Shown here: positions 1,633 through 27,258 of the stretch, in pieces
Layout: the number at the start of each line of letters is the position of its first letter
How positions within the stretch are numbered: position 1 is the stretch's first letter
Assembly (NCBI GenBank): GCA_023481165.1
Contig: JAMCWO010000029.1
Location: forward strand, 1-32,153
Origin: Planctomycetota bacterium
GTDB lineage: Bacteria > Planctomycetota > Phycisphaerae > Sedimentisphaerales > Anaerobacaceae
DNA length: 32,153 bases
Direction of reading: 5' to 3'
Notes under the pieces: model-generated
What the model saw: only the letters and a program-made list of their open reading frames with translations
What the model was told of the DNA's origin: nothing
The model's database searches: none
Program-made: the position numbers and the translations under genes

Positions 1633-1650
1633 CCGCCCGGCACGGACTCT

Positions 1651-1679
1651 GTCATCCTGAGGCAAAGCCGAAGGATGAC
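1651..1679. repeat. Palindromic element, GTCATCC family, copy 1
   Basis: GTCATCCTGAG and its near-complement CGAAGGATGAC form an imperfect inverted repeat. It lies in the 79-bp gap between two convergent genes. A longer relative with the same ends is at 18110-18160. It could act as a bidirectional transcription stop, but there is no T-run. Confidence 0.65.
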
Positions 1680-1711
1680 AAGCGGCGCGCACGAATGAAC
1701 CAGAATCCGTA

Positions 1712-2905
1712 TCATTGGGATTTTGGCTTCCGCAGATCGGGGTTCTGCTTCGCCGCCGACGCACGACTGGCAAACGTTTCCTCCTTCGGGACATTTTCGA
1801 GGCCATAGCGGGCGGCCGCTTCCCGGCGGATCTGACGCATGATCAGGGCGAAATGGGCCTCGGGCACGATGCGCGTGCCTTGCCCATCCGGATAAACGAT
1901 GCGGAGAATCTTGTTCTTTTCCCACTCGTGTGGCGCGATCTCGACCACCACAGCAAAACCGTAGCTGGGCAGGTCCCGGAGGGTGGGTGCGGGATAGGGC
2001 TGCGGCTCGGCCCCCGGGCAAGCCGGGACGTTGGGCACCAGGATGGGCGTGGCGTACCCGGTCTCCACGCCGATGTCGAGGCCGCGTTTTTTCATGTTGA
2101 TGAAGGTGCCGATGCTGCCGGAGTACCATTTGTACTGCACGGAGGCGCTGGCCCGCTTGGCCACGGCGGCCGGCTGAACGCCCAGTTTGCGCATCTCTTC
2201 GTCGAGGGCGAGGGTCATGGCTTCGTCATAGCAGTGCGCCGTGTCCCGCAGGGCCTTCGCCGCGAGGTAGGTGCCGAGCAGGTTCGAGAAACTGTCCTCC
2301 CAGGAAAACGCGGAGTGAAACTCCGGCACGAAGAAGACCGACTTGTAGCCGTACCAGGTGAGAATCTCGTGCCAGGTGACCAGCGTATAGGCCAGGTACG
2401 GCCCCATGGTCAGAGCCACCTCGCGGGCGAGCGGCCGGCGCTGCTCCAGGGATCGGCTCGCCCAGTCGGCGGGATAGGTGATCTGGACGTAATGCGGGGA
2501 ATGCCGATCGGCAATCATCCGGAAGGAGAAGCTCGGGTCGCCCCGCAGCAGGTGTTGGTAGCTTTCGGCGGCCAGGTGCGCCGTCCAGTCCGCCGCAATC
2601 CGCAGGTGCGTCGTGTCGATGTGGCCAGCGCGGCAGGTGTACAGGACGCCGTTTCCCTCTGCCGAGCGATAGTGGTATCCATGCGTTCCGAGATTCTCGC
2701 CGATGAACTGTTTGCCCATGAAGACCAGAGTCGGAGATTTGCCGTAGCGCAGCCGCGGCGTGGAGTTGAAATCGGTGGCCAGGGCGTCGCTGGACGGACC
2801 CGCGATGGGCCTGTCCGGCACCACACTGCACCCGCCCCCGACCAGTCCGAGCCCGACGAAACCAAGCAGCAACCAACGTCCAACAGTGGAATTGTTCCCA
2901 ATCAT
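1712..2905 (-). CDS. DUF4056-like lipoprotein
   Basis: 397 residues. The N-terminus is a lipoprotein signal: a hydrophobic run then the lipobox LVGGGC, so the mature protein should be anchored through Cys26 to a membrane. The body resembles the DUF4056 family as I remember it: RLRYGKSPTLVFMG near the N-terminus, a central TWHEILTWYGYKS block with HE, then FHSAFSWEDSFSNLLGTYLA. The HE and WED positions might be catalytic or metal-binding, but no activity is known to me. The ATG at 2905 is preceded by a G-rich stretch (GGGGGGTAAAGGG) that can serve as a ribosome site. It is transcribed alone, divergent from the next gene and convergent with the kinase. Family assignment is from pattern memory, not from a search. 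Confidence 0.85.
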   Translation of the reverse strand: MIGNNSTVGRWLLLGFVGLGLVGGGCSVVPDRPIAGPSSDALATDFNSTPRLRYGKSPTLVFMGKQFIGENLGTHGYHYRSAEGNGVLYTCRAGHIDTTHLRIAADWTAHLAAESYQHLLRGDPSFSFRMIADRHSPHYVQITYPADWASRSLEQRRPLAREVALTMGPYLAYTLVTWHEILTWYGYKSVFFVPEFHSAFSWEDSFSNLLGTYLAAKALRDTAHCYDEAMTLALDEEMRKLGVQPAAVAKRASASVQYKWYSGSIGTFINMKKRGLDIGVETGYATPILVPNVPACPGAEPQPYPAPTLRDLPSYGFAVVVEIAPHEWEKNKILRIVYPDGQGTRIVPEAHFALIMRQIRREAAARYGLENVPKEETFASRASAAKQNPDLRKPKSQ

Positions 2906-3353
2906 CCCTTTACCCCCCAGGTTATCTGACCCAAAACACGGCGATACACACCGCTCTTTGCCATTATGGGAAGGCCGGGATTCTGCCCGCCACTGGTCAT
3001 TTTTCCGTGATTGATGTCATCGAAAGTCTTTCATTGAAAACAAGGACACGCCAGTGCTGAGAAATGCGTCTGGAGTGCGGCTGACTCCGGGCGGAGAGAT
3101 GGTTGGGCGGCCATCACCGCAACCAACCGGCAGGCTTACCATTCCCGGACGTTGACCAGAGGCGGCCGGAGCTGCGCGTCACAAAATCTGGTCCCGCGGT
3201 CTTGGCTTGCCGATAACGGAGGCAGAATACCCTCCAGCCCGGGGTGTAAAGATGCGAGCTTCAAAGGGGAACAGAAACTGTAGAGGCCGTACCCGGCCGC
3301 AAGAGCAAGGCGGTTCCGGCGTGCGGCAGAAACAGGGAAAAGGAGAGAAGAAC
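2906..3353. other. Intergenic region between divergent genes, no gene seen
   Basis: This 448-bp stretch separates two divergent envelope-protein genes and must hold both promoters. I found no ORF with a ribosome site and none of the repeat families seen elsewhere. No promoter hexamer pair was convincing. The last 20 bases carry the AAAGGAGAG ribosome site of the downstream gene. Confidence 0.6.
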
Positions 3354-3839
3354 ATGAAGTCGAAAATTGCTGTCGCGATTCTGATGGGTTTGATTTCTAC
3401 CTGTGCCTTCGCCCAGGACAAGCTCGGCCTCGGCTTCATCCTCGGCGAGCCGACCGGTTTTACCGTGAAGTACTGGCTGGATGAAGAGCACGCCATCGAT
3501 GGCGCCGCCGCGTGGTCGTTCTGGGATGGAGATGGCTTCCAGCTCCACAGCGACTTCCTGTGGCACGATTTTGACCTGCTCGACGCCCCCGGCGACGCGG
3601 ATGGCAAGCTGCCCGTCTACTTCGGCGTCGGCGCGCGGCTGAAATTCCGGGATGACGCCGGCCGAAACCACGATGAGAACGAGACCATTTTCGGCATCCG
3701 GGCCCCTCTCGGCATCAGCTATCTGTTCGAGGGCAAGCCCTTCGATCTCTTTGCCGAGGTCGCCCCCATTCTGGACCTGGCGCCGGACGTCGAGCTCAAC
3801 GTCAGCCTCGCCGTCGGCATGCATTTCTACGTCAAGTAA
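3354..3839 (+). CDS. Small exported envelope protein, DUF3996-like
   Basis: 161 residues. The start is the ATG at 3354, because AAAGGAGAGAAGAAC directly precedes it and the sequence then opens with a clean signal peptide (MKSKIAVAILMGL ending at CAFA-Q). The longer open frame upstream lacks a ribosome site. The mature part is made of alternating, short amphipathic stretches (LGLGFILGEPTGFTVKYW, VYFGVGARLKF, LGISYLFEGKPFDLFAEVAP) and ends in an aromatic-containing strand, typical of a small outer-membrane beta-barrel. The LGEPTG-KYWL pattern and the closing GMHFYVK strand fit my memory of DUF3996. No enzymatic residues are apparent. Convergent with the cold-shock gene, with a terminator between them. 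Confidence 0.85.
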   Translation: MKSKIAVAILMGLISTCAFAQDKLGLGFILGEPTGFTVKYWLDEEHAIDGAAAWSFWDGDGFQLHSDFLWHDFDLLDAPGDADGKLPVYFGVGARLKFRDDAGRNHDENETIFGIRAPLGISYLFEGKPFDLFAEVAPILDLAPDVELNVSLAVGMHFYVK

Positions 3840-3870
3840 GCACGATTTCACGCCCGGCCTGCGGGCGGCG

Positions 3871-3904
3871 CAAACAAAAAGGCCCCGGCAGCGTGCCGGG
3901 GCCT
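3871..3904 (-). terminator. Rho-independent terminator of the cold-shock gene
   Basis: Read on the minus strand, an AGGCCCCGGCA / TGCCGGGGCCT stem with a short loop is followed at once by TTTTTGTTTG. It lies 27 bp past the stop codon of the minus-strand gene. The plus strand has no T-run, so it is directional. Confidence 0.88.
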
Positions 3905-3930
3905 GTGATTCCTGCGTCCGGGTTGGCCGG

Positions 3931-4134
3931 TCAGCAAGGCGTAACATTCGTCGCGCACGGGCCCTTGCGCCCCTGCCCGACCTGAAAATCAACCTTCTGG
4001 CCCTCATTCAGGGAAGCATAGCCCCCCGTCCGGACCTCCGAATGATGCACGAACAGATCGTCGCCGCCATCGTCCGGGGCAATGAAGCCGAAGCCCTTAT
4101 CCGCATTGAACCATTTTACCGTACCTTTTGCCAC
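3931..4134 (-). CDS. cspA: Cold-shock protein, CspA family
   Basis: 67 residues, the usual length for a single cold-shock domain. Both RNA-binding motifs are intact: RNP1 as KGFGFI and RNP2 as DLFVHH, after the standard GTVKWFN opening. It binds single-stranded RNA or DNA and acts as an RNA chaperone in the cytoplasm. The start codon is GTG at 4134, with TAAGGAG about 7 bases upstream. The C-terminus ([13 protein letters not shown]) is the usual tail with two extra cysteines. Transcribed alone and closed by a strong terminator. Which of the several csp paralogues of a typical genome this is cannot be told. Confidence 0.96.
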
Positions 4135-4338
4135 TGCTGTTCTCCTTAGGCCCGGCGGGCCTGTGAACGCGCTATCCCTCTGTTCTGGGTATGAGGTGTA
4201 AACTCCGAGGGAGGAAAGTGTACCCCTTTTTACAAGCCCCTACCCTATCTGCCGCCCGGGCTTCTGTCTACACAATAAATCGAAAAAGGGGAAAATCCCC
4301 ATGCGGGCCGTGTTTCTTATACTTTCTTGGGGTGCTTT

Positions 4339-4548
4339 ATGAAGACATTTTGGCAACATGCAAGTGGCGAGGTCTACGCGGTCGAGAGCGACACATTCGG
4401 CACCGTCGTCGGCGCCGCCGGCCCGCTGTCGCTCGACAGGCTGCGCGACCCCAGCGAGTACAACTACAGTTGCGGCCTCGTCGGCTGGGTCAAGAAAGCC
4501 ATCGGACAGCGGAAGCTGCACCGGATTAATCCGGCCCTGAAACGCTGA
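4339..4548 (+). CDS. Hypothetical 69-aa protein
   Basis: The ATG at 4339 opens a 69-residue frame (MKTFWQHASGEVYAVESD at the start). The open frame extends to a TTG at 4327, but the ATG looks more natural. There is no signal peptide or membrane segment. The composition is normal for a soluble protein: aromatic N-terminal half, basic C-terminal end (KKAIGQRKLHRINPALKR). A TATACT about 20 bases before the ATG could be a -10 element, which would give a very short leader. I do not recognise the family. The gene is divergent from the cold-shock gene and convergent with bacterioferritin. Confidence 0.6.
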   Translation: MKTFWQHASGEVYAVESDTFGTVVGAAGPLSLDRLRDPSEYNYSCGLVGWVKKAIGQRKLHRINPALKR

Positions 4549-4594
4549 CGGCCGGCAGGCGGTCGTCAAACAGTGGCGGTGGCGGAGCTTGTTG

Positions 4595-4645
4595 GTAGTG
4601 TGCTCGTAAGAGCATAAAGAAGATACCGCCTCACGGCGTCACTAC
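4595..4645. repeat. Palindromic element, GTAGTG...CACTAC family, copy 1
   Basis: It begins GTAGTGTGCTCGTAAGAGCA and ends CGCCTCACGGCGTCACTAC: an outer inverted repeat (GTAGTG/CACTAC) enclosing two small hairpins. It sits between two convergent genes. Relatives lie at 20675-20718 and, inside a coding region, at 29630-29695. Confidence 0.8.
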
Positions 4646-4684
4646 AAACCGGAACCAGCCGCACAACCGCCGGACGACTCCCGA

Positions 4685-5152
4685 TCACCCGGTCTGCTCA
4701 ACGAGGTAATTCTGGATGCCCATCTGCTCGATCTGACTCTGCTGGGCTTCGATCCAGTCGATGTGACCTTCTTCCTCCCGCAGGATCGATTCGAGGATTT
4801 CGCGTGTTCCGTTGTCGCCGACCTCCCGCGCCACCTCGACGCTCTCGTTGTACCCTTTGATCGCGATCTCCTCGGCCTTCCAGTCGTTCTTGTGCATCTT
4901 TTCGACATCGGGACCGATGTTGATCTTGTTGAGGACACTCACGACCGGCTTTCCCTCCAGGAACAGGATGCGGGTGATGAGCTTCTCGGCGTGCCGCATC
5001 TCCACGATGGCGCGTTTCTGAATCTCCTCGTGGAGGTGCTCGTAACCCCAGTTGTCGCACATTTCGGCATGGACCATGTATTGGTTGATTGCCGTCAATT
5101 CGTCGGCCAGCCGGGCGTTCAACTGTTCGATGACTTTCGCGTTTCCCTGCAT
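4685..5152 (-). CDS. bfr: Bacterioferritin
   Basis: 155 residues, full length for the family. All di-iron ferroxidase ligands are present at the E. coli positions: Glu18, Glu51, His54, Glu94, Glu127 and His130. The haem-binding Met52 is also kept (EMRHAEK). The protein should form a 24-subunit shell that oxidises Fe(II) and stores it as a ferric mineral, with haem at subunit interfaces. AAGGAGGA lies about 10 bases before the ATG. The SGNH hydrolase gene ends 66 bp upstream on the same strand, so read-through is possible, but there is no functional link. I saw no clear Fur box; regulation is unknown. Confidence 0.96.
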   Translation of the reverse strand: MQGNAKVIEQLNARLADELTAINQYMVHAEMCDNWGYEHLHEEIQKRAIVEMRHAEKLITRILFLEGKPVVSVLNKINIGPDVEKMHKNDWKAEEIAIKGYNESVEVAREVGDNGTREILESILREEEGHIDWIEAQQSQIEQMGIQNYLVEQTG

Positions 5153-5217
5153 GGTGTTGGATCCTCCTTCACTGTGCGTTTACGAAGTAACACGGACATC
5201 TTGCCCATACGTCGAAG

Positions 5218-6360
5218 TCATGGCTTGGGTTTCACAAACCACGATTTTGTAGTCACATTAGTCTGAAAGAACTTCAGCAGCAGGTCGGCGACCTTCTGGC
5301 GGCCGGCAGGACTCGGGTGCGTGCCATCCGGCCCCAAGTCGTCACGGTTCCAGATCAGACCGTCGCCCTGTCGGGCCTTGGTCCCATCGGCCCACAGATA
5401 CGGCCCCCACAAGAGCAGCGGTGCCTTGACCTCGCCCTTGGCTGGGTCGTAGTTCAGATTCGGATCGTTCGCGACCTGGGACTCGATCAGCCAGCGGACG
5501 GAAAACGCCGACTCATAGGCATAGGGCTCCGGGTTCAAGGTCGTCACCGCGTAGCCCGCATAAATCCGACTCGACAAATAGGCGAGCGTCAAGTTCGGGA
5601 ACCGCGTTTTGAGTTGGCGCAGACACACGGCGATGTTGTCCCGCAGGGTCCGGGCGTGGGCCGGGAATTCGCCGTATTGGGACGGCCGGATCTCGGCCTG
5701 CTTGAGCCAGAGGACCTGGACCTGTGGCGCCGCCACGCCGGCGGCCTTGATCCGCTGATCCATGATGTCCCAGGGCGTCCGACCACCAGGTCCAGCCTGG
5801 GGATAGGCCCACTGGCGGGCCGCCTGGCCGCCTTGGGCACAATCGACGATGGTCACCTGCGGCGCTTTGTTGGGGTCCGCATCGGCAATCTTCTTGAAGA
5901 CCGAGAACTCCTGCGTCGTATTGGACATGCCCAGCGAGATCACGACGATCTTGCCGGTGGGCGACGGATTCCCCCGAGCGTCGCGCGGCACGATCCGGGC
6001 CGTCTGCACCTGGGCCGCCTTGAGGTGCGCTTCCGGCGGGACATTCCGGCCCCGGCCGTAGAGGCCGCCCGTTTGCTCCTGGTACAGGCCGTCCCCCATT
6101 TCCGTGAGCGGGACCAGCCCCGTCGTCTCCCGGGCCGGCGGAACCTGGTTCGCCTGCATCTGGTTGCGGCGCTGCTGTTTGGCCCGGTCCAGATAGGCCC
6201 GCTCCTGACCGGTCAGCGTTTGGCCCTGCCGCTCGCGGCGGAGCAATTCCTGGGCCCGCTGCCAGTCGATCGGCTGGTTGGCCCAAGCCGTCGGGACGGT
6301 CACCGTCGTCAGAAGCCAAAGCGAGGCAGCAACACATGTACGGAAGCGATTCACAGTCAT
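5218..6360 (-). CDS. Secreted SGNH/GDSL-type hydrolase
   Basis: 380 residues. A signal peptide covers about residues 1-28 (cleavage after PTAWA). Residues 30-75 are a charged, Gln/Arg-rich helical stretch. The hydrolase core starts near 137 (GKIVVISLGMSN), where Ser146 stands in the block I position usually written GDS, and ends with Asp345 and His348 in PDGTHPSPAG, the typical block V D-x-x-H. The family removes acyl groups from carbohydrates or lipids; the substrate here is unknown. Start: ATG at 6360 with a modest GGAAG site. It faces the 424-bp divergent region that holds a palindromic repeat cluster. The family call is good; the exact subfamily is not assigned. Confidence 0.82.
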   Translation of the reverse strand: MTVNRFRTCVAASLWLLTTVTVPTAWANQPIDWQRAQELLRRERQGQTLTGQERAYLDRAKQQRRNQMQANQVPPARETTGLVPLTEMGDGLYQEQTGGLYGRGRNVPPEAHLKAAQVQTARIVPRDARGNPSPTGKIVVISLGMSNTTQEFSVFKKIADADPNKAPQVTIVDCAQGGQAARQWAYPQAGPGGRTPWDIMDQRIKAAGVAAPQVQVLWLKQAEIRPSQYGEFPAHARTLRDNIAVCLRQLKTRFPNLTLAYLSSRIYAGYAVTTLNPEPYAYESAFSVRWLIESQVANDPNLNYDPAKGEVKAPLLLWGPYLWADGTKARQGDGLIWNRDDLGPDGTHPSPAGRQKVADLLLKFFQTNVTTKSWFVKPKP

Positions 6361-6784
6361 AGGATACTTCCCATCAGAAGCTCCGTTCTATTCGCCGCAG
6401 GCGCTTATGGTAGATGTCGGAAGACGGATCGTCAATGACCAAAATCCCGCGGGTGCGTGATCGTTGCTGCGCCCCCCGGGTGGAGGCCGGAGGATTGGTT
6501 CCAGCCATCCACTCCAGATAGTCCCGCCGGGACGACCGACCATAGCCCACCGTTTCAACGGTGGGTGCCCAGGTCCCAGACAACATCAAGCCCCGCAGGG
6601 GCGACAGGGCCCGGCACCCCGGCGAAGAGGTTTTTTCGCCCTCCCGGCTTGAGCGGCCGCCTGAGGCGCAAGAACGGTCATGCACCTGATCGCGCTTCGG
6701 GGTTGTCTCCGAGTCTTGTCATTTGCTTCTTGTCCTCGGATCCGCCATAAAGGGCCGGCGGAAGGCCCGTGGAAGGATTCGAAC
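6361..6784. other. Intergenic region between divergent genes, repeat-bearing, no gene
   Basis: It contains the three-palindrome cluster at 6521-6602 and a hairpin with GGCGAA and TTCGCC arms at about 6622-6641. The open frames here are low-complexity Arg/Pro/Ser sequences without ribosome sites and are not counted as genes. GGAAGGA near the right end belongs to the 72-aa gene. Confidence 0.6.
6521..6602. repeat. Cluster of three palindromes
   Basis: In order: GTCCCGCCGGGAC (6521-6533), CCCACCGTTTCAACGGTGGG (6546-6565, a perfect 9-bp stem) and GCCCCGCAGGGGC (6590-6602). The three close hairpins suggest one composite extragenic element. No second copy is in this window. Confidence 0.65.
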
Positions 6785-7003
6785 ATGACAAAGAACAAGC
6801 GTGTCTCGTTCTACCTGGAGGAGCAGTGGCTGGGTGCGATCACCGGATTGGCCGACACGTTCGGCGTCCTGTACGACGCCTGGAAGCGTGCGAAGGCGAG
6901 CCAGCCGGGATACGCGATAGCACAAGTCGATACGGAAACCGCCGGCCATAAGCCAAGCGCCGGCAAGACCTGGGCCGTCCTGAAAGATGGCCGGATCATC
7001 TGA
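6785..7003 (+). CDS. Hypothetical 72-aa protein
   Basis: Start at the ATG at 6785, preceded by GGAAGGA at normal distance. 72 residues opening MTKNKRVSFYLEEQWLGAI. No signal peptide or clear membrane segment. The first half is helical-looking with several aromatics (FYLEEQWLG, YDAWKRAKASQPGYA); the C-terminal half is polar and ends in GKTWAVLKDGRII. I do not recognise the family. It is convergent with the CYTH gene, with a half-copy of a common repeat between them. The good ribosome site and non-repetitive composition support a real gene. Confidence 0.6.
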   Translation: MTKNKRVSFYLEEQWLGAITGLADTFGVLYDAWKRAKASQPGYAIAQVDTETAGHKPSAGKTWAVLKDGRII

Positions 7004-7026
7004 CGAGGCCCCCTGACCGCACACAA

Positions 7027-7060
7027 TGTCACTGCAAGCGAAGCGAAGCAATCTCAATAG
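7027..7060. repeat. Half element of the GTCATTGCGAG family
   Basis: TGTCACTGCAAGCGAAGCGAAGC continuing to CAATCTCAAT matches one arm of the longer inverted repeats at 12748-12847 and 25852-25930. The partner arm is missing. It lies in the gap between two convergent genes. Confidence 0.6.
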
Positions 7061-7078
7061 CACGATTTGCGAAGGACA

Positions 7079-7594
7079 CTATCGATTCAGAAGAAGGTCG
7101 ATATAAGCCCCGTCGATGAGCTGGTTGGAGGAGATGTCAAGCTTCTCCATGAGTTCACGGGCAATGGCGGCACCCTCGGACGAACTCTGCTCGGGGCGCA
7201 GGACCACCTCCAGCTCGACGAATTCGCCCAGCCCCTCGACCCGGTCCAAGTGTACTCTCGTCTGGCCGATGAGGTAGACCGCCCGCCGCTTGCGAACCAC
7301 GCCGCGAATGTCGAAGGCGGCGGCAAGCACCTCTCGCAAACCTTCCGCGTCCGCCGTCGGGTGCACGAGGTACTGACTCTCCCTAGGTCCTGAACTCTCC
7401 GGCCGCTCATAGTAGATTAGCTCCGCCTCCGTACAGCCGCCGAATCGCCTCAGCTTCAACCGTCCGCGCGGGCATACGAAGAACGTGTCCTCCTGCTCCA
7501 ACTCCATCGGCCCACTGTCGGCGAGTCGTTCCACGATCCGGCCCACGGCCGCCAGATCCGCTACCTTCGCCTTGATCTCCACGTTCCTTTTCAT
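7079..7594 (-). CDS. CYTH-domain protein (class IV adenylate cyclase / triphosphatase-like)
   Basis: 171 residues from the ATG at 7594 (MKRNVEIKAKV). The CYTH fold is a beta tunnel that binds triphosphates and divalent metal. The N-terminal signature is usually ExExK; here it reads EIKAK, so the second Glu is replaced by Lys, as in my memory of many bacterial paralogues. Later strands carry the expected charged residues: RGRLKLRRFGG, AELIYYERPE, RRAVYLIGQTRVHLDRVEGLG and VELEVVLRPEQ. The substrate may be ATP, thiamine triphosphate or inorganic triphosphate and cannot be told from sequence. An upstream ATG at 7612 is possible but less likely. Transcribed alone, convergent with a small hypothetical gene. 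Confidence 0.88.
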   Translation of the reverse strand: MKRNVEIKAKVADLAAVGRIVERLADSGPMELEQEDTFFVCPRGRLKLRRFGGCTEAELIYYERPESSGPRESQYLVHPTADAEGLREVLAAAFDIRGVVRKRRAVYLIGQTRVHLDRVEGLGEFVELEVVLRPEQSSSEGAAIARELMEKLDISSNQLIDGAYIDLLLNR

Positions 7595-7818
7595 CCGACA
7601 TCCCTGAAGCACGCGAGCATAATAGCCGAGTCATCGAGGCGACAACGTGCCACAGCCTGGAGCCAAGTATCACTAACGCGCGACCGTCAGTCAATCACGG
7701 CGCTCCAACAATCCGATAGCTGCGGGCCGGCGGAAATCTGTGTCTCCCGACCGGTTTTTACCGCCACCGCCGAAGAAATAGCGCATGGTTTAGGTAGAGG
7801 GAGAGGCGGGGGTGACAT

Positions 7819-8178
7819 ATGAGCCAGGTTGCCAACAGCGTGTGCGAGTTAGAGCCAGCCGAAGCATGCGATCTTTACGCACCGCGGCCGGACTCCCTTC
7901 ATTCTCGGACTCTCGTAAAACGATACTTCCTCGATCCGGTGTTGCCCGTCCTTACTTTGCTGTCCATGTCGGCCCTGACCATCGTCATGCTCGTGGTGAT
8001 CGTGACGACGGTGGCCGACATGGACCGGCAACTGCCGGGCAGCTACGTCGGCGTCGATCCGTGGGCCGGCTGGGAAGCTTCTCCCCCGGGCGAGCCCTAT
8101 CCGGACCAGGCCTATGCCGACTTCGCCGTCTCGATGGGCCCGGCCGAGGAGCGTGAGCCCTGGCCCGGCGCCCGGTAA
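7819..8178 (+). CDS. Hypothetical single-pass membrane protein
   Basis: 119 residues from the ATG at 7819, preceded by a G-rich site (GAGGCGGGGGTGACAT). One hydrophobic helix is clear at about residues 40-66 (FLDPVLPVLTLLSMSAL then TIVMLVVIVTTV), with a positively charged residue pair just before it, which suggests the N-terminus stays in the cytoplasm. The C-terminal 50 residues are Pro/Gly/acidic (VGVDPWAGWEASPPGEPYPD) and would face the periplasm or paryphoplasm. No family is recognised. It stands alone, convergent with the deacetylase gene. The TM segment supports a real protein; function unknown. Confidence 0.6.
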   Translation: MSQVANSVCELEPAEACDLYAPRPDSLHSRTLVKRYFLDPVLPVLTLLSMSALTIVMLVVIVTTVADMDRQLPGSYVGVDPWAGWEASPPGEPYPDQAYADFAVSMGPAEEREPWPGAR

Positions 8179-8229
8179 GCGAACGACCCCTTCTGAGGGG
8201 CCGGACAAGCTCCCGGATCGAAGCAGAGA

Positions 8230-9660: not shown

Positions 9661-9661
9661 C

Positions 9662-10318: not shown

Positions 10319-10410
10319 CACAGTTCCCAATGCTCTATTCGCCTAGCATTCTATCCGCGCGGGTATCTGACGAGAATTGAGCAATTGGAGCTTATTGTGC
10401 GGAACAGGAT

Positions 10411-10542: not shown

Positions 10543-10544
10543 TT

Positions 10545-20510: not shown

Positions 20511-20531
20511 ATTCTCCCCTATCGCGCCTCT

Positions 20532-20560
20532 ATCTAACCGCGACAGCACAGACAGGTCAA
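20532..20560 (-). promoter_or_regulatory. Candidate promoter of the NO reductase gene
   Basis: On the minus strand TTGACC (20560-20555), a 17-bp spacer and TTAGAT (20537-20532). The -35 is good, the -10 weak. I found no clear FNR/NnrR or NorR box here, so NO-responsive control is not shown. Confidence 0.35.
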
Positions 20561-20674
20561 GATCATCACACAGATACGTGGTCGCCTCCAAGCCGGAATT
20601 CTCCTGATTTGGCAGGCGCGTTTTGCTCACGTGGAGGCCCGCGACACTACTGTCAAAATGCATGGGGCCGGTTT

Positions 20675-20718
20675 GTAGTGTGCCCGTGAGGGCATAGAAG
20701 AACGCCTTACGGCGTCAC
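20675..20718. repeat. GTAGTG...CACTAC element, copy 2
   Basis: GTAGTGTGCCCGTGAGGGCA then CGCCTTACGGCGTCAC. The final CACTAC is altered. It lies right after the dctM stop codon (7 bp), before the NO reductase gene, where it may separate the two transcripts. Confidence 0.8.
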
Positions 20719-20725
20719 GGCGAAC

Positions 20726-22030
20726 CTAGGGATGGATCCAACGGGGCAGGATCAGGGCGATGTCGGGAAAGAGAATCAGAAGAATGGCGACGACAATCAT
20801 CGCGACCAGGAACGGCATGGAGCCGCGAAAGATCGTTTCCAGCGGCACATCCCGGTTCATCCCGCTGACGACATACACGCACACGCCCACCGGCGGCGTG
20901 ACGACGCCCATCTGCGTCACCAGCACGATCATCACGCCGAACCAGATCGCGTCGTAACCCAGGTTTATCACGACCGGGTAGAAGATGGGAATCGTCAAGA
21001 GGACCAAGGCCAAGGCATCCACAAAGCAGCCGGCGATCAGGTAAAAGACCACGATCAGCCCCATGACAATCCAGCCCGGCAGGGCCAGGCCACCCAGCCA
21101 CGTTGCCAGGGCGAAGGGAATGCGCGTCACCGCCAGGAAATGCCCGAAGACGACCGCCCCCGCGACGATGATCATCACCATGCACGAGGTCCGCAGCGTC
21201 TCCCTGAACGATTGCACGAGCGTCTTGAAGCTCAGGTTGCGCTTGAGGACCGTGATCAGGATGGTGCCGGCCGCTCCGATCGCAGCGCCCTCGGTAGGCG
21301 TGAAGAAGCCGTAGAACATGCCGCCCATCACGGCCAGGAAGAGCACCAGTGTCTCCCACATGCCCCGCAGGGACAGGACCTTCGCCTTCCAGGGCGTGGA
21401 GGGCGCCCGCGGCCCCAGCTCCGGCCGGCGAACGCACTGCCAGTAGATCACGAGACAAAACAGCAGCGCCGTCAGAATCCCCGGCAGAATCCCCGAGATG
21501 AAGAGCTTGCCGATGGATTGCTCGGTCATGATGGCATAGACGATGAATACGACGCTGGGCGGGATCATCATGCCGATGCTGCCGCCGGAAGCGATCGTGC
21601 CGCAGGCCAACTCCATGCTGTATTTGTATCTGCGCATCTCCGGCAGGGCCACCGCCGCCATCGTTGCTGTCGTGGCCGGGCCCGAGCCGCAGATCGCCCC
21701 AAAGGCGGTGCAGGCGCCGACCGTCGCCATCGCCAAGCCGCCGGGCAGAGGTCCCAGCCAATGATACGCCGCATCGAAGAGCCGCCGGCTGATCCCGCCG
21801 TGAAAGGCCACCTGGCCCATCAGAACGAATAGCGGAATCACGGTCAGGCTGTACGAGGCGAAGGTCTTGTAGAGATCGAACGTCAGAACGCTGACGGCCG
21901 CGTGAAGATTGACGACCACCGCGAAGCCGACGAACCCCACCACCGCCATCGCGATCGCCACCGGTATGCTGCTGCACAACAGCACCACCAGCGCCACGCA
22001 TCCAACAATCCCTATCTGTTCCGGCGTCAC
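20726..22030 (-). CDS. dctM: TRAP transporter large permease, DctM
   Basis: 434 residues from a GTG at 22030 that overlaps the dctQ stop codon (GTGA), so the two are translationally coupled. Further upstream the frame overlaps dctQ and is not coding. About 12 hydrophobic segments are visible, with glycine-rich motifs typical of DctM (SGPATTATMAAVALPEMRR, ASGGSIGMMIPPS, PTEGAAIGAAGTI, CFVDALALVLLTIPIFYPV). It is the ion-coupled permease that, with DctQ, imports a solute handed over by the DctP binding protein at the expense of a Na+ or H+ gradient. Length is normal for the family (about 425-435). The substrate is set by DctP and cannot be read here. Confidence 0.96.
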   Translation of the reverse strand: MTPEQIGIVGCVALVVLLCSSIPVAIAMAVVGFVGFAVVVNLHAAVSVLTFDLYKTFASYSLTVIPLFVLMGQVAFHGGISRRLFDAAYHWLGPLPGGLAMATVGACTAFGAICGSGPATTATMAAVALPEMRRYKYSMELACGTIASGGSIGMMIPPSVVFIVYAIMTEQSIGKLFISGILPGILTALLFCLVIYWQCVRRPELGPRAPSTPWKAKVLSLRGMWETLVLFLAVMGGMFYGFFTPTEGAAIGAAGTILITVLKRNLSFKTLVQSFRETLRTSCMVMIIVAGAVVFGHFLAVTRIPFALATWLGGLALPGWIVMGLIVVFYLIAGCFVDALALVLLTIPIFYPVVINLGYDAIWFGVMIVLVTQMGVVTPPVGVCVYVVSGMNRDVPLETIFRGSMPFLVAMIVVAILLILFPDIALILPRWIHP

Positions 22031-22602
22031 GGCTTCATCAGCTCCTTCCCCGGATGCGTCATCTGGTACAGGAGCACCAGGATCGTCGCCGCCGTGCACA
22101 GAGCCATCCAATGCGCCAGCCAGAAGATCGGCCACCGCAGCGTGACCATCCCCTGGTGATTGGCCTTCAGCTCCATGCCGTACAGGACGAACCGCCACGT
22201 CAGAAAGGCGAACACGGAGATGAAGACGAGGGCCACGAGCGTGCTCAGCACGATCCGCCCGCGTGCGGAAAGCTTCTGGGGGAGAAACTCGATAGATACG
22301 TGCCCACGGCAGGCCGTCGTGTAGGGCAGCGCCCCGGTAATCGCGATCGCCCCCAGGACCTCCACGAGGTCATAGGCACCGTTGAGGGGATATCCCAAGC
22401 GGCGGGCAACCACGTCCACGCACGTCAGGATGATCATGGCCGCCACAGCCAGCCCTGCGGTGCCCGCCAGGAGCCCGACCAACCGGCGCAGAAGTACCGC
22501 GTAGGCGTAGGGTGGGCTGTGCCCACCATTCGTCGTTTTGTTCATCCGTGGGGGATTGGTGGGCATAGCCCACCCTACGAGTTGCAGAAGAGCTGGCTTC
22601 AC
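22027..22602 (-). CDS. dctQ: TRAP transporter small permease, DctQ, with repeat-derived N-terminus
   Basis: 191 residues from a GTG at 22602 that follows the dctP stop codon (TAA) with no gap. Four hydrophobic helices are visible (for example LAVAAMIILTCVDVVARRLG and IVLSTLVALVFISVFAFLTW), with the family's GAYDLVEVLGAIAITGALP and GHVSIEFLPQ region. Residues 9-32 (VGWAMPTNPP through NGGHSPPYA) are the translation of the 72-bp repeat at 22507-22578, so this N-terminus is not homologous to normal DctQ. Starts within the repeat (ATG codons at residues 13 and 20) would shorten it; no good ribosome site follows the repeat. DctQ joins DctM in the membrane. Stop overlaps the dctM start by 4 bp. Confidence 0.9.
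   Translation of the reverse strand: MKPALLQLVGWAMPTNPPRMNKTTNGGHSPPYAYAVLLRRLVGLLAGTAGLAVAAMIILTCVDVVARRLGYPLNGAYDLVEVLGAIAITGALPYTTACRGHVSIEFLPQKLSARGRIVLSTLVALVFISVFAFLTWRFVLYGMELKANHQGMVTLRWPIFWLAHWMALCTAATILVLLYQMTHPGKELMKP
22507..22578. repeat. GTAGGGTGGGC element, copy 2 (72 bp), inside dctQ
   Basis: Same length and same ends as 16617-16688 (GTAGGGTGGGCTGTGCCCACC ... GCCCACCCTAC), with differing bases mainly in the centre. At 72 bp it adds 24 codons to dctQ without shifting the frame. Confidence 0.9.
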
Positions 22603-23694
22603 TTACTGACCTGTCGACGGGGAATACTTCGCAATCAGGTCCTGGGCATCCTTGAGGAACTGGTCTCCGGGCAGATTCTTCTCCTTCGCGGCCTTCACAT
22701 AGTCGTCCAGGACCGGCTGCACGGCCTGCTTCCACTTCTGCTGCTCCTCGGCCGACAGTGAGATCATTTCGCGCTGGAGGCCCTCGACGAACTCGCACCC
22801 CTCGGCATCGGCCTGGTCCCAGGCCTGCCCATGCCTGGCCACCCATTCTTGGCTGACCTCCGTGAAGACCTTCTGGATATCGGGCGGCAGGCTCTCCCAC
22901 TTTTTCGCATTCATCGTGACGAACATGGCCGTCGTGTAGCCGACCGCCGGCACTTCCGTGATCGAATTGATCACCTCACCCTGCTTCCAGCCCTTGAGGG
23001 TCTCGATGGGACACAGGGTCGCATCGACGACCCCCTTCTGCAGGGACTCGTAGGTATCGCCCTGCGGCATTCCGACGGGCGCAGCGCCCAAGGCCGTGAT
23101 GATCTTGGCGGAAAGTCCCGTGCCGCGGACCTTCATGCCCTTCATGTCTTCCAGGCTCTTGACGGGCTTCTTCGAGGCCAGCAATCCCGGCCCGTGGGCA
23201 TGCGCGTACAGCACGTGCGTATTCGCCACTTCCGCCGGCTTGTACTTCTCCGTCAACTCGGTGGCAATCCGCGTCGCGACAGTGCCGTTGGGATAGCCCA
23301 GCGGCAGGTCCAGTCCCTCCAGCAGCGGGAACCGTCCCGGCGTGTAGGCAAAACAACTCATGCCGATATCCGAGATGCCGTTGACCACGCCCTCGTAGCA
23401 TTGCGGGGCCTGCGTCAGCGCGCCGCCGGGGAAGATCGTGATCTTGACACGGCCATTGGTCCGCGCCTCGATCTCCTTGGCCCAGGCCGCGGCCGTCTTG
23501 GTCTGGATATGGGTCGGCGGGAAGAAGATGCTGTAGTTGAGCTCAATCGGCTTGGAGGCGGCCGGGCTTGCGGCTTTGGGTGCGGCTCCGGGCTTGACGG
23601 CACCGGCCGGTTGCTTCTTGCAGCCCACCAAGGAAAGTCCCATAATAACACTGATCGCGATCGTTGGCAGCAGACACCGTGTGCCTCGATTCAT
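22603..23694 (-). CDS. dctP: TRAP transporter substrate-binding lipoprotein, DctP
   Basis: 363 residues from the ATG at 23694, with GGGAGG 6 bases upstream. A lipoprotein signal ([16 protein letters not shown], lipobox SLVGC) predicts an anchored binding protein rather than the usual free periplasmic form. An Ala/Pro/Lys linker follows. The body fits the DctP family: [66 protein letters not shown], and the conserved arginine of the substrate-binding motif (KVRGTG). Substrate unknown; carboxylates or taurine-type solutes are usual. First gene of dctP-dctQ-dctM, with a strong promoter at 23779-23806. Confidence 0.95.
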
Positions 23695-23778
23695 GTGTGG
23701 CCTCCCAAAACCTACCCTTGTGACTGGCCCGGTACCAGCCAATCTGCCGTTGCCCGAAAACACGCACAGGACACAGGG

Positions 23779-23806
23779 ATTTTACCATCCCGGCGCCGCA
23801 ATGCAA
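23779..23806 (-). promoter_or_regulatory. Predicted promoter of the TRAP operon
   Basis: On the minus strand TTGCAT (23806-23801), a 16-bp spacer and TAAAAT (23784-23779), about 75 bp before the dctP ribosome site. It has the same -35 and spacer as the bipA promoter. Confidence 0.55.
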
Positions 23807-23843
23807 GCCCCGATCTAGCGCCGGCGTGTCCCGGGGGAGCTTC

Positions 23844-24059
23844 CTATTCGGCTGAGGCCACCCAAGCCGCCTCTGCCTGAGCAGTGTCAGGATGCAGCTC
23901 CGAGGCGGTGCCGCGTGTGACGCCTTGGCGGATCACGCACTCCTCGGATCGGATCATCGCAGACTTGTGCGACTCCATCCGATCCGCATCAATTATGATG
24001 CATCCGGTTGCCCAAACCGTCGTCAGAGCCAGGGTGGTCATCCACAGGTACGTCTTCAT
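23844..24059 (-). CDS. Small lipoprotein, 71 aa
   Basis: 71 residues from the ATG at 24059, with GAAGGGAAG directly upstream. MKTYLWMTTLALTTVWATGC is a lipoprotein signal with a terminal cysteine. The mature part is short, polar and acidic (IIIDADRMESHKSAM, then Glu/Ala-rich) and contains a second Cys. No family recognised. It stands 150 bp upstream of dctP on the same strand and has its own promoter (24107-24135). A longer frame to 24095 is open but has no ribosome site. Confidence 0.65.
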   Translation of the reverse strand: MKTYLWMTTLALTTVWATGCIIIDADRMESHKSAMIRSEECVIRQGVTRGTASELHPDTAQAEAAWVASAE

Positions 24060-24106
24060 GATCTTCCCTTCGCACAGAGACCTCAGGGCCGCCAATTCAG
24101 CCCGGC

Positions 24107-24135
24107 ACGATACCAGATTGCCGTGATGGCGTCAA
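24107..24135 (-). promoter_or_regulatory. Predicted promoter of the 71-aa lipoprotein
   Basis: On the minus strand TTGACG (24135-24130), a 17-bp spacer and TATCGT (24112-24107). Transcription would start near 24100, leaving a leader of about 40 nt. Confidence 0.5.
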
Positions 24136-24193
24136 ACGGCACCGCGCGGAATTCGCACCGGCCTCCGCTGCTTATTGGAAGTGTGATCTTTGG

Positions 24194-24290
24194 AGTTTGA
24201 AGGGTGGAGTTTGAAGGGTAAAGTGTAGGGTGTGAAGTGTGAGGGCGGGGCTGCGCCGACTTCAAACTTCACACTTCAGACTTAAAACTT
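24194..24290. repeat. TTTGAAG inverted repeat, copy 2
   Basis: AGTTTGAAGGGTGGAGTTTGAAGG at the left, ACTTCAAACTTCACACTTCAG at the right. It ends 10 bp before the NUDIX start codon, so it lies in or next to the NUDIX leader and ribosome site. Related to 12463-12522. Confidence 0.65.
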
Positions 24291-24299
24291 GGTGGACAC

Positions 24300-24923
24300 A
24301 TGGACCCGAATTGGCTCAAGTGGGCAAAGCAATTGGCGGCTTTATCCCAAGATGGCTTGACCTACTCCGACAACGAGTATGAGATCGAGCGGTACCAACA
24401 GATCCGGCGGATCGCGGCGGAAATGATGTCCGCCGGCTTCGATCTGGAGGCCAAGGCGTTCATCGAGCTGTTCGCCCGGGAGCAGGGCTATGCCACGCCC
24501 AAAGTGGACGTCCGGGGCGCGGTCTTCCGCGATGACAAGATCCTGCTGGTGAAGGAAAAGATCGACGGCGGCTGGACGCTGCCGGGCGGCTGGGCCGACC
24601 CCTGCCAGTCGCCCTCCGAGGCGGTGGCCCGCGAGGTCTTCGAGGAGGCCGGCTTCGAGGTCCGCGTGGTCAAGCTGGCGGCCGTCTACGACCGCAGCAA
24701 GCACCCGCACCTGCCCCCGATGCCTTTCCACCTCTACAAGCTCTTCTTCCTCTGCGAGATCACCGGCGGCCAGGCCACCGAGAGCTACGAGACCACCGGC
24801 GTCGCCTTCTTCGCCGAGGACAGCATTCCCGAGCCGCTTTCCATCTCGCGGACGCTCCCCTTCCAGATCGCCCGCATGTTCGAGCACTACCGCAACCGCG
24901 CCTTGCCGACGGACTTCGATTGA
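24300..24923 (+). CDS. NUDIX hydrolase with N-terminal Nudix-associated domain
   Basis: 207 residues from the ATG at 24300, with a GGTGG site upstream. Residues 1-65 match the helical N-terminal domain that precedes Nudix domains of the YjhB type (WAKQLAALSQDGLTYSDNEYE). The Nudix box starts at Gly97 and contains REVFEEAGF (111-119). The canonical Glu six residues after the first Gly is Gln103 (DPCQSPSEA), while the metal-binding EE is intact. The family cleaves nucleoside diphosphates linked to another group, using Mg2+ or Mn2+; the substrate is unknown. The downstream permease starts 4 bp after the stop codon, so the two form an operon. The repeat at 24194-24290 abuts its start. Confidence 0.93.
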   Translation: MDPNWLKWAKQLAALSQDGLTYSDNEYEIERYQQIRRIAAEMMSAGFDLEAKAFIELFAREQGYATPKVDVRGAVFRDDKILLVKEKIDGGWTLPGGWADPCQSPSEAVAREVFEEAGFEVRVVKLAAVYDRSKHPHLPPMPFHLYKLFFLCEITGGQATESYETTGVAFFAEDSIPEPLSISRTLPFQIARMFEHYRNRALPTDFD

Positions 24924-24927
24924 CCGC

Positions 24928-25833
24928 ATGCTCCAGGCAATCCTGACTTCCATTCTGTTTGCCCTGTCCGCCGTCAGTGCGGGGCGCTCCACGCGTCTGC
25001 TCGGGGCGGGCACGGCGAATCTCTGCCGGCTGATTCTGGCCACCGCGTGCCTGGCCCTGTGGGCCCATATCTTCGGCGCTGGCCTGAGCGGCGCCGGCCT
25101 GCCGTGGCTGTTTCTCAGCGGTATCGTCGGCTTTGGCATGGGCGACCTCGCCTTGTACGGTGCCTACTGCCGCCTCGGTCCGCGTCTGGGCGTGCTCTTG
25201 TGCCTGTGCCTGGCCGCGCCGCTGGGGGCCCTCCTGGAATGGCTGTGGCTGGGCACGAAACTGACGCTCTATCAGATCCTGTGGGGCGCGACGATCCTCG
25301 TGGGCGTGTTCGCCGCCCTGGCGCCGGACAGCCGCGTGGCCGTCGGGCCACGGATGTGGGGCATCGGCATCGTGCTGGGCACCATAGCGGCCTTGGGACA
25401 AGGCGGCGGCGCCGTGCTCACGCGCAAGGCGTTCGACGTGGCCGGACAGGTGGGCCAGCACATTGACGGCGGCACCGCCGCGTATCAACGAATTCTCGGC
25501 GGCCTGCTGCTGACCATTGTGTTCCTGCTCGCCAGGCATGGGCGGCAGTGCTTCCCGATGTTAACCCAGGAACCCCCCGCCGGAGACAGGCCCTGGCGGC
25601 AGGCATGGCCCTGGGTCATCGCCAATGCGTTAGCGGGCCCCACCCTGGGCGTGGCCTTCTACCAGTGGGCCCTGGCCATAGCCCCTACCGGCATCGTGCT
25701 ATCCATCGTAGCCACCACCCCCCTCGTCGTGATCCCCTTCACGATGCTCCTCGACGGCGAGCGGCCGACCGTGCGGTCTCTGGTAGGAGGCGCCGTCGCC
25801 GTCCTCGGCGCCGTAGCCCTGGCGTATAAGTAG
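24928..25833 (+). CDS. EamA/DMT-family permease
   Basis: 301 residues, the normal length, with about ten hydrophobic helices in two repeated halves (for example LPWLFLSGIVGFGMGDLALY and AIAPTGIVLSIVATTPLVVI). Conserved features of the drug/metabolite transporter family are present, including a terminal GGAVAVLGAVALAY helix. It probably exports or exchanges a small metabolite; the substrate is not readable. The ATG lies 4 bp after the NUDIX stop codon, so co-translation is likely. A link with the NUDIX enzyme's product is an inference from position alone. The frame ends 18 bp before a palindromic element. Confidence 0.9.
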   Translation: MLQAILTSILFALSAVSAGRSTRLLGAGTANLCRLILATACLALWAHIFGAGLSGAGLPWLFLSGIVGFGMGDLALYGAYCRLGPRLGVLLCLCLAAPLGALLEWLWLGTKLTLYQILWGATILVGVFAALAPDSRVAVGPRMWGIGIVLGTIAALGQGGGAVLTRKAFDVAGQVGQHIDGGTAAYQRILGGLLLTIVFLLARHGRQCFPMLTQEPPAGDRPWRQAWPWVIANALAGPTLGVAFYQWALAIAPTGIVLSIVATTPLVVIPFTMLLDGERPTVRSLVGGAVAVLGAVALAYK

Positions 25834-25851
25834 AGTTTGAACTGCAAGAGA

Positions 25852-25930
25852 TGTCATTGCGAGGAGCGCAGCGACAAAGCAATCTCAATCTCACGCGTGG
25901 AAGACTGCTTCGCTTCGCTCGCAATGACAT
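25852..25930. repeat. GTCATTGCGAG-family inverted repeat, copy 2
   Basis: TGTCATTGCGAGGAGCGCAG and CTTCGCTCGCAATGACA are inverted arms around CAATCTCAATCTCACGCG. It lies between convergent genes. Related to 12748-12847. Confidence 0.88.
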
Positions 25931-25983
25931 GTTTGAGGCTGTCTCCCCTGCATTTGCCGGCGTCCCATGGAGCGTCTGCCCCG

Positions 25984-27045
25984 TCACATACTCCCCACGA
26001 AGCTCCATCCGTTTGCAGCGTGATAGCGGTCTGTGATGTCGCTTGGCCGCATCCAGACGACCTGTCCCTGCAAGTGCTTATCGATCCGCTCGGCCACCGT
26101 GGTGAACGCCGGCCAACCGACGCCTCTGGCCGGATTCAGGCCCTGCCAGTGAGCGTACCAGATGCAATAAGGCGCCCCGGCCTGAAGGTGCCGAACGAGA
26201 ATGCCGGACTTGCCATCGGCCGTAATGTAGTAGTCGGGATCGACACGCTGGGGGTTGTTCTCCCAGATGCCGAAGTGGTCGCCCGCATTGGGCATCAGGT
26301 CGTAGACACCGTATGCGCCGTCGCTCGCCTTGCGATGAATGGTCCCTTCGGTTTCGCTGGAGTCGAAGAAGCACGGCACGGTCCGCCCGCGAAACTTCCC
26401 TTCCTTCGCCAGGTTGAGCAGCGCCTGCCACATGGCGGGGTTGGGCGCCCGATGACCGCTCGCCCGCAACTCGGCGTACCGCTTCGTACAGGCCTCGCAA
26501 CTGCAGCCCGGCCACGTGAACCCCGTGAACCGCACACCGCCGCGTTGACCCTCGGCAAGGATGTCCCCGAAATAGCGTTGGTACTCTTGGACGGTGACGG
26601 CGGGCTCATGCAACCACAAGCCTTCATGGACGACGTCCTTCTTCTCGCGATTGGCGGCGAAATCGAACAGGCCGCGGTGGGTCATAATCTCCATGTGCGT
26701 GTCGATGCCGCACTCCCAGGCCCGCGCGACTTGCTGAAGAAATGCCTTCTCTTCCGCGCTCGGATTACGGGCCATGCTATGGCCGCCCGTGCCCAAGATG
26801 GCACTGGCTTCGCCGCGGATGCCCTGCTTGGCGCAATAGTCGAGAAACGTCTCGAACGCCTTGGCCCCCGCCACGCCGGGGCTCGTGTCGTCGCAATAGA
26901 ACGACAGGATCATTTTGCGCTCGCGCGCTTTGCCGGGACTTTCCGCACCGACTCGGTGGGATCGTACGACCGTTCCAGCCACCGCCGATGCGGCGGCAAC
27001 ACGAAGAAATCGCCGACGGGTCCAGGATTGTCTTGTGGTAGTCAT
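25984..27045 (-). CDS. Tat-exported polysaccharide deacetylase-like protein
   Basis: 353 residues from the ATG at 27045, with GGAGG upstream. MTTTRQSWTRRRFLRVAAAS is a textbook twin-arginine signal. The mature part opens KMILSFYCDDTSPGVAGAKA, a DD motif like those of NodB/DUF2334-type metal-dependent deacetylases, and later has HMEIMTHRGLFDF, the likely His-rich metal site. GFTWPGCSCEACTKRY carries three cysteines, which may form a disulphide or bind metal. This family assignment is by pattern memory and moderate; the substrate, perhaps a carbohydrate, is unknown. It stands alone, convergent with the permease operon. The 61 extra open codons upstream of the chosen start are not coding. Confidence 0.7.
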   Translation of the reverse strand: MTTTRQSWTRRRFLRVAAASAVAGTVVRSHRVGAESPGKARERKMILSFYCDDTSPGVAGAKAFETFLDYCAKQGIRGEASAILGTGGHSMARNPSAEEKAFLQQVARAWECGIDTHMEIMTHRGLFDFAANREKKDVVHEGLWLHEPAVTVQEYQRYFGDILAEGQRGGVRFTGFTWPGCSCEACTKRYAELRASGHRAPNPAMWQALLNLAKEGKFRGRTVPCFFDSSETEGTIHRKASDGAYGVYDLMPNAGDHFGIWENNPQRVDPDYYITADGKSGILVRHLQAGAPYCIWYAHWQGLNPARGVGWPAFTTVAERIDKHLQGQVVWMRPSDITDRYHAANGWSFVGSM

Positions 27046-27212
27046 CTTACATCCTCCACAGACGCCTTGCTCTTTCGGGTGCGACTGACATCCCGTTGCC
27101 ACGATCACTGCGGGGTCCATCGTACTGTGCCAACCATCCCCTCGCAAGGGACGAAGACGCGAGGGCAATTGTACGTTCACCCGTGGAATCCTGATATCCC
27201 ATAAAGAAAGGC

Positions 27213-27258
27213 GGCGCGTGGCATGCACCCTACGGGCCCCAGCCGTGCGTCATTCGTA
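27213..27258. repeat. GGTGCGTGG element, copy 2 (short)
   Basis: GGCGCGTGGCATGCACCCTAC then CGTGCGTCATTCGTAG. It matches the left two-thirds of 15512-15582 but lacks the closing ATGCGTGCCACGC arm. It lies 7 bp from the stop of the MBL-fold gene. Confidence 0.7.

Follow-up and report, generated by a model that had tools for sequence, protein, structure and literature searches.

Several populations of REP-like palindromes in the gene junctions of a planctomycete genome

Introduction

Genomes that carry several families of repetitive extragenic palindromes (REPs) have already been published, Planctomycetes included, and passages of the 2013 survey that covers them (PMC3733652) also describe REPs inside genes and REPs that supply stop codons; its Table 1 lists GTAGGGTGGGCTTcAGCCCACC for the REP-associated tyrosine transposase (RAYT) of H. 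influenzae. According to the same passages, repeats tagged with CGTC, often altered to TGTC, are without associated transposase genes. Insertion sequences (IS) of the IS110 family that target REPs are known as well, with IS621, ISPa11, ISPpu9, ISPpu10, and ISRm19 named in parts of one report (PMC1525189) and such targeting also treated in part of another (PMC11208160). Here, we analyzed a stretch of 32,153 nucleotides from a Planctomycetota bacterium (the window; contig JAMCWO010000029.1 in its whole length), for which an earlier note, made from the sequence letters, had proposed about nine families of short palindromes filling the gene junctions. As a catalogue entry such a genome is ordinary, multi-family REP genomes being in print (PMC3733652, in the passages cited); the open question addressed is that of the CGTC/TGTC REPs, for which these passages give no dedicated transposase.

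Results

The window is an entire contig (C216) of a 6.05-Mb genome in 376 contigs that is 86.8% complete. The finding of recurrent palindromes is real for six to seven of the nine families, and it is of a known kind. All palindrome sequences were found at the positions where the earlier note had placed them, with some details to correct: at 7027 there is half an element, the REP-like stretch at 27213 has degenerated, the letters at 13118 are GTACGGGCG, and the REP at 1201 is a variant of GTAGGGGCGGGCCCCC. The genome-wide copy count that the note had proposed as a check gave recurrence for six of the nine families, not single copies for most of them. Pattern counts, with reversed patterns as controls, yielded 82 exact 11-mers of GTCATTGCGAG (control 0), 62 matches of the GTAGGGTGCGT family (pattern GTAGGRTGCGT; control 4), and 118 matches of GTAGGGGCGA (control 9). 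DNA searches placed GTAGGGTGGGC at 40 sites or more (80 rows merged, since a palindrome is hit on either strand; 40 of 117 candidates scored), GTAGTG likewise at at least 40 places (41 rows; 40 of 81 candidates scored), and the GGCCAAAC compound in at least 44 matches, many of them partial (40 of 47 candidates scored). GTCATCC...GGATGAC has 5 pattern places in the genome, of which 1 is likely due to chance and 4 are plausible, 2 of these in the window; GTCATCC is a low-copy family.

Chance expectations were calculated with a first-order Markov model over 313 kb, made up of the window and 20 sample contigs picked every ~18 contig numbers; the picks were shifted by one at C81 and C171, contigs known to hold matches, which gives a slight bias against REPs. 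The cores of GTCATTGCGAG (8 found versus 0.4 expected), GTAGGGTGGGC (11 versus 0.2), GTAGGGGCGA (9 versus 0.2), TTTGTAGTG (5 versus 0.2), and GTAGGRTGCGT (4 versus 0) lie far over chance, and those of TGTCATCC (19 versus 9.0) and GGTGCGTGG (7 versus 2.6) two- to threefold over expectation. No clear excess in these 313 kb was found for the cores GGCCAAAC (18 versus 12.4), GTTTGAAGT (2 versus 1.2), and GTGTGAAG (5 versus 6.8), and the claim that GGCCAAAC is a repeat therefore rests on the genome-wide compound search. A blastn comparison of the window with 808 kb of other DNA of the same genome, part of it selected through the families themselves, returned 17 intervals, of which the six recurrent families account for 13, GTCATCC places for 2 (one matching locus each), and coding stretches for 2. 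The features at 6521, 12463, 12890, 24179, and 27213 had no blastn match in that DNA.

Eighteen of the 20 elements delineated in the window are intergenic, against a random mean of 3.8, and none of 20,000 random placements reached 18. The elements occupy 1183 of the 6241 intergenic bases; five are flanked by convergent gene pairs, and those at 1201 and 29630 lie inside open reading frames (ORFs). Gene ends are provisional calls made from ORFs and Pfam matches. The call at 3929-4136 is in the wrong frame, and no element falls there; the dctQ start was set at 22485, which leaves the element at 22507 outside the gene, and the longest ORF would include it. A generic inverted-repeat search found pairs at 8 of the 20 elements (1650, 10408, 12746, 13118, 16616, 22506, 24179, and 25851), with the remaining 12 under its thresholds. 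When folded as DNA, 10 elements gave z-scores of -2.4 to -10.2, with 0 to 2 of 200 shuffles folding equally well.

GTAGGGTGGGC, GTAGGGTGCGT, GTAGTG, and GTAGGGGCGA are GTAG-tagged REPs, in which a GTAG foot is followed by a short hairpin; GTAG stands beside the hairpin in copies of GTAGGGTGGGC, GTAGGRTGCGT, GTAGTG, and GTAGGGGCGA. The first three families form mainly inverted pairs (REPINs), the spacer being ~25-31 bases long in GTAGGGTGGGCTGTGCCCACC and shorter in GTAGGGTGCGTNNNACGCACC. In the window, GTAGGGTGGGC REPINs are located between convergent genes at 16617-16688 (fold z -10.2) and at the 5' end of dctQ at 22507-22578 (fold z -9.0), both recovered by the inverted-repeat and genome searches. 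At 15512-15583, a pair of GTAGGGTGCGT-type REPs stands with facing GTAG feet (pattern count; fold z -2.9), and a degenerate GTAGGGTGCGT-like REP, recognized by sequence only, lies at 27213-27258. GTAGGGGCGA matches frequently come as plus and minus pairs 18 bases apart, which together form one palindrome with GTAG at each end. The copies of the window are at 13118-13145, where only the end other than GTACGGGCG is exact (inverted-repeat search and pattern count; fold z -4.5), and at 14408-14435 (pattern count; blastn matches in up to 19 loci).

Comparison of 25 distinct GTAGTG copies with an intact first hairpin revealed the order GTTTGTAGTG, hairpin TGCTC-GTAA-GAGCA, short spacer, second hairpin (ACGCC-GTAA-GGCGT as read from the opposite strand), and CACTACAAAC. 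Some copies have longer outer inverted arms, among them the one at 4551-4690 (core 4587-4649; genome search and blastn; core fold z -2.4). The copy at 20672-20725 (+) has a degraded right end (blastn and aligned copies), and a third lies in frame within an ORF at 29630-29697 (- strand; fold z -3.9). On the reverse strand of locus L104, a GTAGTG copy is interrupted by another palindrome.

A PF01797 search found five Y1 transposase genes in this genome (C81, C289, C35, C195, and C196). The RAYT gene on C81 sits between two inverted GTAGGGTGGGC REPs, with another REP pair just outside; it contains one in-frame TGA and is apparently broken. The C81 query gave no second match in this genome at 1e-10, and since the only canonical RAYT found carries an in-frame TGA, RAYT-driven spread may have stopped. 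On NF047646, the model for REP-associated tyrosine transposases (cut-off 80), same-genus homologues of C81 reached 195 and 190 bits, in a scan in which the C81 protein itself was not included. Relatives of the C81 protein occur in 31 of the 119 related genomes surveyed, the source genome counted. At the 30 RAYT loci (C81 and its relatives), a GTAG hairpin was found within 330 bp of the RAYT match on any side in 27 and on both sides in 17, compared with 57 and 0, respectively, of 1200 random windows drawn from the sample contigs and 40 other Y1 stretches. A motif filter that left 23 of the 30 loci to be scored gave 20 and 14, and the control for this run, under a looser hairpin rule, 26% and 2.4%. 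Some relatives' RAYTs are flanked by GTAGGGTGCGATG REPs, which are similar but not identical. The suggestion that these palindromes are REP-like, non-autonomous, and served by a transposase elsewhere is thus borne out for GTAGGGTGGGC, with its genome-wide copies, its REPIN build, and a RAYT bounded by the same REP. GTAGTG, GTAGGGGCGA, and GTAGGGTGCGT are alike in build and number with no RAYT tied to them; a REP-associated Y1 transposase with matching ends was found at C81, for GTAGGGTGGGC only.

Among the other Y1 genes, C289 is IS200-like by score, and C35, C195, and C196 differ in kind from C81 by sequence. The C195 gene has GGAATTCCGGGGACACC inverted repeats at its borders, like the TIRYT class with GGGGWSAS ends described in part of PMC3733652, and scored 71.4 bits on NF047646, under the cut-off of 80; C35 and C196 were outside that scan. 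A TIRYT-like transposase at L034 1263-2155 is bounded by inverted GGGGACACC ends and preceded by a tandem duplication of 108 nt, and L033 4-589 holds seven scattered 28-mer copies of the AATTGGSTTYGTTTTGCAC type upstream of a Y1 transposase.

The GTAG-type REP (GTAGGGGCGGGCCCCCGTGCCCGCCC) at 1201-1226 (+) is in frame with a histidine-kinase/receiver ORF (130-1632), in whose linker it lies; two further loci of the genome match it over 28-29 bp at 93%. A paralogue of this kinase elsewhere in the genome (L017, 52% identical) carries a REPIN at the corresponding position (~1501-1577), which supplies the stop codon, and we infer that two genes may have been fused by the window's REP. The in-frame GTAGTG element at 29630 belongs to the ORF 30793-29117 (DUF6298/collagen-binding-like), whose 81%-identical orthologue in the same-genus genome G007 is without the element. 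The orthologue's loop is 18 residues (54 bp) shorter and both sides otherwise match, a short variable loop there standing against a longer loop that holds the element here. Three of 11 homologue loci (L242-L252) passed the ORF filter for this protein alignment; the two other homologues have different, shorter loops, which indicates that the loop at 29630 is variable. The alignment with G007:C124 is limited to that single orthologous gene and to repeats resembling TGTCATCC, which leaves no empty site between genes to be read, and no target-site duplication stood out by eye in the flanks of inspected copies. At L046 16456-17922, one GTAG REP lies in frame within the ORF of a UDP-glucose dehydrogenase, in which the three Pfam domains are all present, and a second REP gives this ORF its TAG stop.

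GTCATTGCGAG and GTCATCC are TGTC-tagged repeats that resemble the published CGTC superfamily. In the GTCATTGCGAG pairs, which measure 75-100 bp in the inspected copies, two related hairpins meet head to head; back-to-back neighbours were also seen. By inspection, the copies have a TGTC foot, AT at the start of the stem, and head-to-head pairing; the stem of 8-9 bp, loop of 4-5, and CCA-like tail of CGTC/TGTC repeats are replaced by an ATTGC/GCAAT stem, a longer centre, and a CTC tail. Because of this mismatch, we label the repeats as TGTC-tagged and resembling, outside any listed CGTC family. The window contains GTCATTGCGAG head-to-head REP pairs at 12746-12849 (inverted-repeat search; one end exact) and, between convergent genes, at 25853-25928 (inverted-repeat search and pattern count; fold z -4.2), together with half of a GTCATTGCGAG REP at 7027-7055 (+; sequence and blastn). 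The GTCATCC palindromes are located at 1650-1680, between convergent genes and reading TGTCATCC...GGATGACA (inverted-repeat and pattern searches; fold z -5.6), and at 18110-18160 (pattern search; fold z -3.3).

GTCATTGCGAG is REP-like, and no transposase was tied to it in this genome or in the surveyed relatives. It is present in 94 of the 119 genomes, with at least 20 matches in 16 of 31 RAYT-positive versus 29 of 88 RAYT-negative genomes and medians of 20 versus 7 matches (Mann-Whitney p 0.07). The 17 genomes without a PF01797 match (E 0.001) have a median of 2 matches versus 10.5 in the rest (p 0.07), and four genomes without a Y1 match yet have at least 14 (G022 92, G027 23, G097 21, and G046 14). 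The 40 stretches around relatives' Y1 genes (3 genes IS200-like, 37 weaker-scoring) that were taken from among the matches listed include none flanked on both sides by TGTC motifs and 5 with some TGTC-like motif. The passages of PMC12306157 and PMC6006769 on the subject name no CGTC transposase. The TGTC surveys agree with the published lack of a transposase, short of proof. A composite TGTC transposon was considered and rejected: among nine relatives' stretches with close TGTC matches, one held a transposase between motifs, which is a REP-splitting IS110. The other eight TGTC-dense stretches had no obvious transposase from ORF starts, judged without a family scan of the ORFs, and no mobiliser was found there.

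Analysis of locus L253 revealed an IS110 element (1037-2762), with a transposase gene matching PF01548 and PF02371, inside a TGTC REP, the two halves of which face each other; the flanks of the IS110, joined side by side, give a complete TGTC REP pair. A scan of genome contigs yielded 29 loci with relatives. TGTC motifs stand on both sides at 4 of them (L303, L304, L323, and L326), of which L304 is apparently the same contig as L253 and L303 carries the same IS at another place; motifs stand on one side only at 7 loci and on neither at 18. Among the one-sided loci, L305 and L306 match the left half in place and orientation, and L309, L313, L314, L325, and L328 do not. At six of the loci the sequence stops no more than 130 bases away from the gene, and that side could not be judged.

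The exact TGTC-REP 28-mer GTCATTGCGAGCGAAGCGAAGCAATCTC occurs in 37 IMG/VR stretches (L332-L368). A 21-mer of GTAGGGTGGGC was found in 5 stretches, a 25-mer of GTAGGGGCGAAT in 8, and a 27-mer of TGTCATCCTGAG in 13; the patterns are unequal in length and the counts unnormalised. Homologues of a head protein (phrog_212) and of a structural protein that matches phrog_399 weakly are present in 17 of the 37, and the pattern-matched REPs in these 17 stretches are sense to the structural genes 40 times and antisense 4 times; the 44 phage REPs are not independent, because each stretch was selected through a REP of this kind and the contigs are relatives of one another. In most of eight phage contexts inspected by eye, an ATG follows within ~60 bases of the REP. 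Both the lack of a transposase for the TGTC family and the occurrence of the family in phage contigs are leads, not results.

Two of the nine proposed families were not confirmed as repeats. The triple palindrome at 6521 contains a 46-nt two-hairpin Acido-Lenti-1 RNA at 6520-6565 (-; RF01687, 49.1 bits, above the gathering threshold of 37), located between divergent genes and distinct from a REP, and no other copy was found in 862 kb from this genome (a total that counts the window and loci that overlap). The TTTGAAG/GTGTGAAG runs at 12463-12535 (seen in the sequence; a candidate only as a repeat family) and 24179-24290 (several inverted-repeat search pairs) are degenerate, purine-rich, heptad-like tracts with inverted partners. 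One comparable run lies outside the window in the same 862 kb (L099), and L033 has a further, looser one. The GGCCAAAC compound palindrome is located downstream of the TypA/BipA gene at 10408-10545 (genome and inverted-repeat searches; fold z -5.0), and a second GGCCAAAC palindrome, identified from its letters only, at 12890-12950.

Discussion

The genome very probably carries several REP populations, in which the GTAG types are miniature elements of RAYT systems and GTCATTGCGAG and GTCATCC are TGTC-tagged repeats with no transposase identified. The copies, their build, the RAYT enclosed by GTAGGGTGGGC, and the GTAG hairpins at relatives' RAYTs together make the GTAG families best read as RAYT-system elements. 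Following published schemes or our own reconstruction, a Y1/HUH transposase would cut single-stranded hairpins at the GTAG foot, and the copies would land elsewhere; they would survive mostly at gene junctions through selection against coding hits, in-frame survivors being rare. Several points weigh against this interpretation. No transposition and no target-site duplication was observed, the evidence for mobility being one in-frame copy that is missing from an orthologue, and the insertion loop of that copy, at 29630, varies among homologues. Three of the 30 RAYT loci (L223, L229, and L240) are without a GTAG hairpin as defined here, L223 having a RAYT that begins 174 bases from the contig end, and the random windows were drawn from loci other than the RAYTs. 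GTAGTG, GTAGGGGCGA, and GTAGGGTGCGT are tied to none of the five Y1 genes, an absence that is weak in a genome of this completeness, and GGCCAAAC has neither a GTAG nor a TGTC foot and is thus unplaced.

It is distinctly unlikely that the palindromes, instead of being mobile DNA, serve as intrinsic terminators or as hairpins for RNA processing that selection keeps at gene ends. The elements between convergent genes fit such a role, as does the number of terminator-like sites in the window at 1-19000 (26 versus 13.4 in shuffles, sd 3.8). However, 14000-32153 shows no clear excess (16 versus 12.9, sd 3.6), sites of a hairpin plus T-run overlap only 4 of the 20 elements (4587, the 6521 region, 14408, and 27213), and the same sequences recur genome-wide, with two copies inside ORFs. 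The elements may have a secondary effect on transcripts. Classical miniature inverted-repeat transposable elements (MITEs), with a DDE transposase, terminal inverted repeats, and target-site duplications, would account for the long near-perfect inverted ends of the GTAGGGTGGGC family (arms of 26-29 nt), but these same ends enclose a RAYT, the halves each carry a GTAG foot and a hairpin of their own, and no duplication is evident by eye in the inspected flanks, all of which makes this origin extremely improbable.

For the TGTC family of GTCATTGCGAG, mobilisation in trans by a GTAG-type RAYT or another Y1 transposase is conceivable, if rather doubtful. The dimer build is the same, and matches are more numerous in RAYT-positive and in Y1-positive genomes (p 0.07 each); against this stand the 29 of 88 RAYT-negative genomes with at least 20 matches, the richness of G022, G027, G097, and G046 without a Y1 match, and the 40 Y1 stretches of relatives, none of which has TGTC motifs on both sides among the matches listed, though drafts may miss transposases and the motif is narrow. 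It is unlikely, on present evidence, that TGTC-REPs spread without a Y1 transposase and cross phyla on phages. In that case their position between structural genes of related phage contigs, nearly always in sense orientation and in the inspected contexts often shortly ahead of a start codon, may mark them as RNA elements of late operons, which bacteria would acquire and IS110 elements would then use for landing. TGTC repeats are frequent in many related genomes in which no C81-type RAYT was found, and in a few of these no Y1 gene was found either; phage contigs carry the same 28-mer, and these are the places to look for the way in which the repeats move.

Compared with the GTAG REPs and REPINs and their RAYTs, as described in parts of PMC3733652, PMC2817692, and PMC3116915, the GTAG families of this genome share the GTAG foot, the hairpin, the inverted pairs, and, for GTAGGGTGGGC, a RAYT with matching REPs; the passages of PMC3733652 also describe mostly intergenic elements, some intragenic copies, and several families per genome, as here. 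The GTAGTG element is unlike the GTAG REPs described in those sources, as far as text descriptions allow the comparison, in being a regular pair of two different GTAA-loop hairpins. With the CGTC-tagged REPs, RPE-4/RPE-6 and dRS3 included (passages of PMC3733652), the TGTC families have in common the change from CGTC to TGTC, the AT at the stem start, the head-to-head pairs, and the lack of a transposase, and they differ in a tail of CTC instead of CCA, an outer stem shorter than 8-9 bp, and a longer centre. The Acido-Lenti-1 RNA differs in its host, which here looks planctomycete by gene content. The IS110/REP systems described in parts of PMC1525189 resemble the locus found here in that the IS divides a REP that is readable across both flanks, and differ from it in that the REP here is of the TGTC type and the loci are recorded under several phyla.

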